Virus record (IMG/VR): IMGVR_UViG_3300030106_003788
Location: 1-29,036 of that record
Reading direction: 5' to 3' (one strand)
DNA from: a virus
Length of the DNA stretch: 29,036 bases
Shown here: positions 22,960 to 24,275 of the stretch, one piece after another
Layout: the number at the start of each line of letters is the position of its first letter
Position numbering within the stretch: the stretch's first letter is position 1
Position numbers and translations under genes: made by a program
Notes under the pieces: model-generated
Seen by the model: the letters and a program-made list of their open reading frames with translations, nothing else
The model's database searches: none
Told to the model about the DNA's origin: nothing

Positions 22960-23294
22960 AAACAAACGTAGGCATAGAACTAACAGACGAAGAACGACTC
23001 GATTTAGGACAGAAGTATTACAAAAAGAACAAGGCGATAACACGAGCCGACTTGAACGTAATCGTTAAAAACTACATCAAAAGCGTATTGACTGCCAGAC
23101 CTTATACTTTGGAGGAGAAACAAAACGAGCCTTGTCTTAAAGAAGAATGGTCGTCACTTAGTCAATTCAAAGAATATCTACAAAAACAAGGCTACACCGT
23201 CATGTCTTTTGACGGCTTTAAGTTAATAGCTAAAGACAGCGACAAGCAAGTGCACAGCTACACGCTTGGCTTGGGTAAAATATTAAGGGATTAG
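22956..23294 (+). CDS. Last gene of the small-gene cluster, unknown function
   Basis: The start is taken at 22956 (ATGA overlap with the previous stop, GAGGG upstream), giving 112 residues. It is helical at the N-terminus (ELTDEERLDLGQKYYKKNKA, then TRADLNVIVKNYIKSV) and mixed at the C-terminus (FKEYLQKQGYTVMSFDGFKL, then IAKDSD). A helix-turn-helix cannot be excluded but is not clear. It runs tail to tail into terS with a four-base overlap and no terminator between. Confidence 0.65.
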   Translation: MKTNVGIELTDEERLDLGQKYYKKNKAITRADLNVIVKNYIKSVLTARPYTLEEKQNEPCLKEEWSSLSQFKEYLQKQGYTVMSFDGFKLIAKDSDKQVHSYTLGLGKILRD

Positions 23295-23794
23295 TCTTTA
23301 CGAACTATCGTGTGGGTTTGGTCGATAGTTTTAGGCGATTCTTTTGGTCTATCCAATAAAGGTATAACATCCGCAAGCAATCCGTCTACTTTCTGCTTTA
23401 ACTGTTCTTCGGACATAGACTCAAGCGTGCCTGTTCTAATTTCTTTCCTATCTACGTACAAGCCGGCTGCTCGGCCTCTCTGCACTTCTGCGGCTACGGC
23501 TGCGGTGTAGTTGCCTTTATCCAAAGCACAATCTCTAATCTCTGCAAGCTTTCTTATGTGTCTGCCGTAAGACACATCAAACTTTGCATTAACCTCAGCT
23601 TGTAGGTCTTGGATGTATCGAACAACTGCGGGGTATTTTCTTGGATTGGTTAACTCGGATGCTCTGCTTTTTGCAGAACTTTTAGAGTAGCCGGCAGACA
23701 AGGCACACTCTTCTTTAGTTTTACTGCCATCGTTGTACACGTATTCGTGGGCAAAGCGTCTGGCTTTTTCTGAAATCTTCTTTTCAGCTTCCAT
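23291..23794 (-). CDS. terS: Terminase small subunit
   Basis: The 167-residue protein matches the Terminase_2 family. KARRFAHEYVYNDGSKTKEE is followed by CALSAGYSKSSAKSRASELT and NPRKYPAVVRYIQDLQAEV, the N-terminal DNA-binding helix-turn-helix of small terminases. A helical oligomerisation region (ALDKGNYTAAVAAEVQRGRA) and a C-terminal tail that would contact TerL or portal follow. It recognises the packaging site and feeds TerL. It is unusual in that it is not next to terL. No Shine-Dalgarno is visible before the ATG. A TTGACT-16-TATATC promoter ends only nine bases before the start codon. Confidence 0.85.
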   Translation of the reverse strand: MEAEKKISEKARRFAHEYVYNDGSKTKEECALSAGYSKSSAKSRASELTNPRKYPAVVRYIQDLQAEVNAKFDVSYGRHIRKLAEIRDCALDKGNYTAAVAAEVQRGRAAGLYVDRKEIRTGTLESMSEEQLKQKVDGLLADVIPLLDRPKESPKTIDQTHTIVRKD

Positions 23795-23857: not shown

Positions 23858-24095
23858 ACCTAATTTCCTAATGTGGACCTAATGTGGCTCACATTAGGTG
23901 GAAACCCTTATAGAACCTAACGTACAGCAAAAATGAATGCCATAACGTCATTTATTTAGTGAGGCTGATAGTCTAAATCTTTTGATTTTTGAAAAAATAG
24001 ACATTCACATTAGGTGGAATAATAAAAAAGGTATATATGGGAAAGGGTTTTCGACCTAATTTTTACCTAATGTGAGCGTTTTGTTCACATTAGGT
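23858..24095. repeat. Array of ACCTAATGTG motifs in both orientations
   Basis: Five perfect copies of ACCTAATGTG or its complement CACATTAGGT occur at 23877-23886(+), 23890-23899(-), 24006-24015(-), 24065-24074(+) and 24086-24095(-). A nine-of-ten copy is at 23866-23875(+). Half motifs ACCTAA(T) occur at 23858, 23915 and 24054. Two pairs form inverted repeats: 23877-23899 with a 3-base spacer, and 24065-24095 with 11-bp arms and a 9-base spacer. The array lies between terS and the strong plus promoter. It may be operators, replication iterons or a packaging recognition site. Confidence 0.85.
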
Positions 24096-24106: not shown

Positions 24107-24161
24107 AAGACGACCGTTAACACTTAATCTTTGGAGAAAATACAAGATAAACGGCCGTCTT
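24107..24161. repeat. Inverted repeat, 12-bp arms with one mismatch
   Basis: AAGACGACCGTT (24107-24118) and AACGGCCGTCTT (24150-24161) are complementary except at one position and are separated by 31 bases. The loop contains TTTGGAGAAAATAC, which looks like a ribosome site but has no start codon after it. The hairpin is directly next to the motif array and may be part of an origin, operator or RNA control element. Confidence 0.6.
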
Positions 24162-24246: not shown

Positions 24247-24275
24247 TTGACACGTCTTATAAGATATGTTATAAT
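24247..24275 (+). promoter_or_regulatory. Consensus sigma70 promoter
   Basis: TTGACA (24247-24252) and TATAAT (24270-24275) match the sigma70 consensus perfectly, with the optimal 17-base spacing. Transcription should start near 24282 and run right through the structured leader into the 160-residue gene. It is the strongest promoter seen in the window and lies 150 bases to the right of the last ACCTAATGTG motif. Confidence 0.85.

Follow-up and report, generated by a model that had tools for sequence, protein, structure and literature searches.

A cluster of short words, repeated in both orientations, lies next to the small terminase gene (terS) of an ocean phage, and raises the question of which protein reads it and for what end. 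The window, i.e., the whole stretch of 29,036 bases analysed here, covers only part of a genome that measures about 60 kb, and a sequence-only reading of it had proposed that the cluster is an operator, an iteron-type replication start or a packaging site recognized by the small terminase subunit (TerS). How TerS proteins read DNA has been described as unresolved (PMC9611059), and the best-studied relative of the window's TerS proved almost independent of sequence. Passages from a paper on phages of this group make no mention of packaging sites (PMC9599517).

Nine sites of one word lie upstream of terS

Five exact copies of the 10-bp word ACCTAATGTG were observed where 0.07 were expected, a number that none of 100 shuffles reached, and with one further copy carrying a single mismatch these bear out the repeat array in both orientations that had been described previously. 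The claim that the word is absent elsewhere in the window held as well, as every copy in the record with at most one mismatch belongs to the array. Because three additional copies, each with two mismatches, sit at the same places in relatives, we counted the full array as nine sites (five exact and four degenerate) in 238 bp; it lies directly upstream of terS, which is the adjoining gene on the minus strand. The features of the locus are as follows.

23291-23794, minus strand: terS, small terminase subunit, 167 aa (Pfam Terminase_2, E 9e-6; PHROG small terminase)
23651-23674, minus strand: codons of TerS residues 41-48, the predicted helix-turn-helix (HTH) recognition helix (AlphaFold helix H41-48)
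23858-23867, plus strand: site 9, ACCTAATTTC, two mismatches, at a position common to clade-A relatives
23866-23875, plus strand: site 8, TCCTAATGTG, one mismatch
23877-23886, plus strand: site 7, exact
23890-23899, minus strand: site 6, exact, forming an inverted pair with site 7 across a 3-base spacer
23900-23913, plus strand: landmark GGAAACCCTTATAG, resembling CTATAAGGG/CTATAGGGG-TTTC of other clades (visual comparison of relatives)
23915-23924, plus strand: site 5, ACCTAACGTA, two mismatches
23965-23973, minus strand: GACTATCAG, between sites 4 and 5, a possible degenerate IHF half-site with an imperfect consensus
24006-24015, minus strand: site 4, exact
24030-24052, minus strand: landmark GAAAACCCTTTCCCATATATACC, resembling CCCTATATACA, CCCTATACACC and CCTATATATACC of other clades (visual comparison)
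24054-24063, plus strand: site 3, ACCTAATTTT, two mismatches
24065-24074, plus strand: site 2, exact
24086-24095, minus strand: site 1, exact, forming an inverted pair with site 2 across an 11-base spacer
24107-24161, minus strand: hairpin bordering the array on its outer side, a 12-pair stem followed by a U-rich tract (fold z -5.0)
24247-24275, divergent from terS: sigma-70 promoter with an extended -10 element (12/12 consensus match)

Both inverted pairs that had been noted are present and the 3-base spacer is correct, but the outer pair is separated by 11 bases for the 10-bp word and by the 9 bases first reported only if the word is lengthened to ACCTAATGTGA. Sequence comparison showed that TATCAR within the GACTATCAG region is common to clades A (which includes the window) and C. 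The hairpin, the stem of which is retained at locus L010 despite altered sequence, is likely a terminator or boundary element; Rfam and tRNA searches gave no match.

The adjoining gene encodes a TerS of the SF6/SPP1 family

The window TerS belongs to the SF6/SPP1 family. It matched SF6 TerS in profile searches (E 1.9e-6 to 2.4e-6) and with phmmer (E 6e-5), and the DNA-binding domain of its AlphaFold model (mean pLDDT 76, and about 91 at recognition helix 41-48) has the fold of SF6 TerS (4zc3; 1.8 A, Foldseek E 0.16, probability 1.00). For the SF6 domain, little sequence specificity and a weak preference for TTAGGTT have been reported (PMC4737164). The window's word reads CACATTAGGT on the opposite strand, with sites 1, 5 and 9 extending to TTAGGTT (reverse complement), and the helix starts with GYSKSSA in the window TerS and with GYSKNSA in SF6; these two likenesses, which are suggestive rather than proof, lend support to the view that TerS may bind the array.

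Relatives keep the array and switch the word

TerS searches of viral contigs yielded about 195 usable terS loci from HTVC023P/HTVC027P-type marine phages; the relatives HTVC023P, HTVC027P, 023Pt_psg01 and DSL-LC04 have genomes of 57.6-61.5 kb. Across this group we found terS-adjacent arrays with clade-specific words, at least 20 words in all. Close relatives (TerS 84-98% identical) share the word and layout of the window, and relatives with TerS 67-72% identical have an array in the same place with other words. Clades A (ACCTAATGTG) and C (CCTCAGTTC) both have nine sites in an identical orientation order (+ - - + - + - - -), with site offsets of 0,19,30,83,150,193,205,216,224 in clade C vs 0,22,33,80,172,196,210,221,229 in clade A (correlation 0.998). 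These clades, clade B (word CCGTCTAATGT) and HTVC023P (word CTAGGAAA) have the array upstream of terS, and it switches to the downstream side in 023Pt_psg01 (TGTGCCA) and in the D-type phages. In the latter, TerS is about 49% identical to that of the window and the array follows terS at a distance of roughly 0.4-1.6 kb; their words include AAAGTAGA, AAAGTCGG, AAAGTGTC, TTGTAACA, TTGAGACA, TGTGGAAA and GTACAACC. A direct search for the window's word gave nothing in other clades, and the arrays emerged there by de novo word finding. As regards conservation in relatives, by which the sequence-only reading had proposed to judge the array, what distant relatives conserve is the array and its layout, not the word.

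Some loci showed further peculiarities. At L045 (G007:C1:24522-24952), terS is broken across two frames with stops and the array is still present. No array was found upstream of terS in DSL-LC04 (L054), where the intergenic region is flanked by a long inverted repeat (CCTATAG...ATACACTCTC). D-type loci (e.g., L053 and L089) have GC-rich CAAGC-type repeats with a 7-base periodicity about 650-950 bp upstream of terS, which we excluded from the D-type array as a separate feature.

Among 127 terS loci with enough flank, 75% had an array score of at least 7 and 53% a score of at least 9, vs 5.5% and 0.7%, respectively, of 271 control pieces, a comparison that is partly favourable by construction and in which the control pieces came from the same contigs and measured 1.6 kb each, the terS-side search spanning as much as 3.5 kb, divided into two segments. 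Adjacency to terS is also partly by design, because terS served to select the loci and the searches kept to its surroundings. In the two complete genomes that were scanned, further words with high scores (TCCACCA, ACCACCT and similar) map to the region of the structural genes and look like codon repeats. Contig ends did not pile up at the arrays, in a selection of loci that was biased against seeing such a pile-up.

Word variation follows the TerS recognition helix

When the rest of TerS was controlled for, variation in the HTH recognition helix (residues 41-58) was found to track word similarity best. This test used partial correlations between 12-residue TerS windows and word similarity, with the TerS C-terminal domain as the control for divergence. 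For all clades (108 sequences) the peak fell on residues 41-52 (partial r 0.375; largest maximum in 300 permutations 0.108) and for the D-type phages (49 sequences) on residues 47-58 (partial r 0.48; largest maximum in 300 permutations 0.28), the correlations being moderate, the sequences related and shared ancestry incompletely removed by permutation. In matched D-type genomes, TerS reached 0.52 and the 12-residue windows of seven linked proteins at most 0.44, a maximum that belongs to the exonuclease adjoining the D-type array; the 94-aa product of the gene that separates terS from the array reached 0.22. Linkage alone thus does not explain the TerS signal, as judged against the seven flanking proteins that the test took in.

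Individual loci point in the same direction. Among loci with an ARQ[YH]AS helix, T or S at residue 52 goes with TGAGACA in 11/11 cases, and K or Q at residue 52 goes, where an array is present, with TGTAACA/TGTAGCA, except in L140 and L158, which have ASQL in place of ASKL. Small changes in TerS thus accompany small changes in the word. In a comparison with D-type word classes assigned by hand, two TGSEL loci (L044 and L083) have words that end in GG, and their TASEL relatives have AAAGTAGA or AAAGTGTC. Residues outside the helix must matter as well, because in that comparison the helix KDRARVTASEL is paired with three words (L094, L149 and L151). Taken together, these comparisons indirectly suggest, within the limits set by shared ancestry, that the site word and the TerS recognition helix change in concert.

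Alternative readings of the array

Repeated words, IHF sites and AT-rich DNA are typical of iteron replication origins, at which an initiator would bind the words, IHF would bend the DNA and the AT-rich DNA would open. The arrays described here combine repeated words with AT-rich landmarks and, in some cases, with IHF sites; a perfect IHF consensus (WATCARNNNNTTR) was found in 17 of 64 non-redundant arrays vs 2.7 expected, the largest number in 300 shuffles being 9, and the representative of the window's clade had no perfect IHF match and only the conserved TATCAG. A Rep_3-type initiator, however, was not found in 8 records, nor was a recognized initiator found among nine HTVC023P proteins (primase, helicase, PolA and others), and word similarity follows the recognition helix of TerS more closely than it follows any of the seven linked proteins compared. 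Cumulative GC skew, which is dominated by gene orientation, turns at the record ends rather than at the array in the two genomes for which it was computed. An origin is thus an improbable reading of this array.

A second possibility is that the array is an operator, on which a repressor or TerS itself would act to regulate terS together with early genes that diverge from it. The position of the window's array between terS and a divergent consensus promoter, as claimed from the sequence, was confirmed with a perfect promoter match, and SPP1 provides a precedent in that its pac site overlaps promoters (PMC6316719), so that packaging and regulation can coexist. This arrangement is not conserved with the array, however; the promoter segment is missing from the corresponding place in L009 and L010, where the sequence differs, which places the promoter outside the conserved array. 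In addition, a single operator would not need as many as nine sites in a set arrangement spanning 230 bp, and the operator reading fits poorly because many clades, with the D-type genomes and 023Pt_psg01 among the examples, have the array downstream of terS. We thus regard a primarily regulatory array as very unlikely.

It is similarly doubtful, in our view, that some other DNA-binding protein reads the array and that TerS changes with the word by gene linkage only. The best candidate is an exonuclease-like gene that adjoins the array in D-type phages and nearly matches TerS (0.918 vs 0.902 for the word-class AUC, with the hand-assigned classes, and 0.44 vs 0.52 for the partial correlation), and AUC alone does not separate the two. 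By contrast, no correlation is seen for the gene that lies between terS and the array, 10/24 representative loci have a member of the exonuclease family near the array, with none in the window's clade, and the signal within TerS is concentrated at the recognition helix. An attP site is argued against by the absence of a tyrosine integrase from all 15 records searched, several of which are incomplete.

Satellites sharing the window's word were considered and rejected as well. The viral-contig scan returned phage relatives (TerS-found loci), an isolated inverted pair (L046) and an unrelated phage (L047/L052), and the genome scan returned seven isolated inverted pairs, none of which had a third copy close by with at most one mismatch. 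The unrelated phage has three copies of ACCTAATGTGTCGG, which contains the window's 10-bp word, just after terL (L052:3315-3392 and L047:8193-8270) and gave no TerS match; the shared word is either coincidence or convergence. Beside its terminase genes, a 103-aa ORF (L052:236-547) resembles, by eye, the DnaA C-terminal DNA-binding domain.

A candidate packaging-initiation site and its known counterparts

Among the functions first proposed, a TerS site with a likeness to cosB is favoured, because terS-adjacent arrays occur group-wide, their words track the recognition helix and some arrays contain IHF sites; the operator fits poorly and the iteron is left without a supporting gene. We thus consider it likely, on the evidence of sequence comparison, that the array is a TerS-bound packaging-initiation site (pac/cosB-like) of the window phage. 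Several TerS subunits would bind the nine ACCTAATGTG-type sites, each through its HTH, and the DNA would bend between the site groups, with the help of IHF in some relatives and of another or a degenerate element in the window phage. Bending would allow a single TerS oligomer to hold the site groups together and to recruit TerL, the large subunit, for a first cut near the array. We infer these steps of binding, bending, recruitment and cutting, as well as headful (pac) rather than cohesive-ended (cos) packaging.

More tentatively, packaging specificity may have diversified repeatedly in this widespread group of marine phages, with the helix and all copies of the word changing together to give at least 20 specificities, perhaps under selection for capsids that exclude competing or parasitic DNA; we hold this to be possible rather than probable. 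The new element is an extensive natural series of apparently coupled TerS and site changes, found within a TerS family that has been reported as sequence-nonspecific. Since many natural TerS variants adjoin their likely target words, and some of them are only one or two residues and two bases apart, the rules of recognition are directly testable by swapping. If true, the reading would also locate the packaging start of a very abundant ocean phage group.

With regard to known systems, iteron origins (e.g., pSC101) share repeated words, AT-rich DNA and, in some relatives, IHF sites with the arrays described here, which differ from them in mixed orientations, the lack of a detected initiator gene and a word that tracks TerS. 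The SPP1/SF6 pac region (pacL, pacC and pacR) is served by a homologous TerS and is likewise a terS-linked repeat region, in which TerS binds both sides of the cut; the SPP1 boxes, however, are few and are not one repeated word, and the SF6 domain is reported to bind with little sequence preference. P1 pac consists of seven TGATC(A/G) hexamers, an IHF site and a cleavage site (PMC10028697). Here, as in P1, two groups of short repeated words flank a central region, with IHF sites here in some relatives, whereas the P1 words are Dam sites within pacA and those described here are variable, non-GATC words located outside terS. The lambda-family cosB (R3-I1-R2-R1) also has several TerS-type sites in mixed orientation beside terS, with an IHF site between sites, which here is found in some relatives only. 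In lambda, 21 and N15, the recognition helix and differing R-site words set packaging specificity (PMC4669245). Unlike the lambda family, which has three sites, the array described here has nine, with an SF6-like TerS, far more word variants and, as judged from the sequence, no cosN or cohesive end identified. The architecture of a TerS site is itself thus known from lambda cosB, P1 pac and SPP1 pac, and the features that vary here are the number of sites and the long series of coupled changes in word and TerS.
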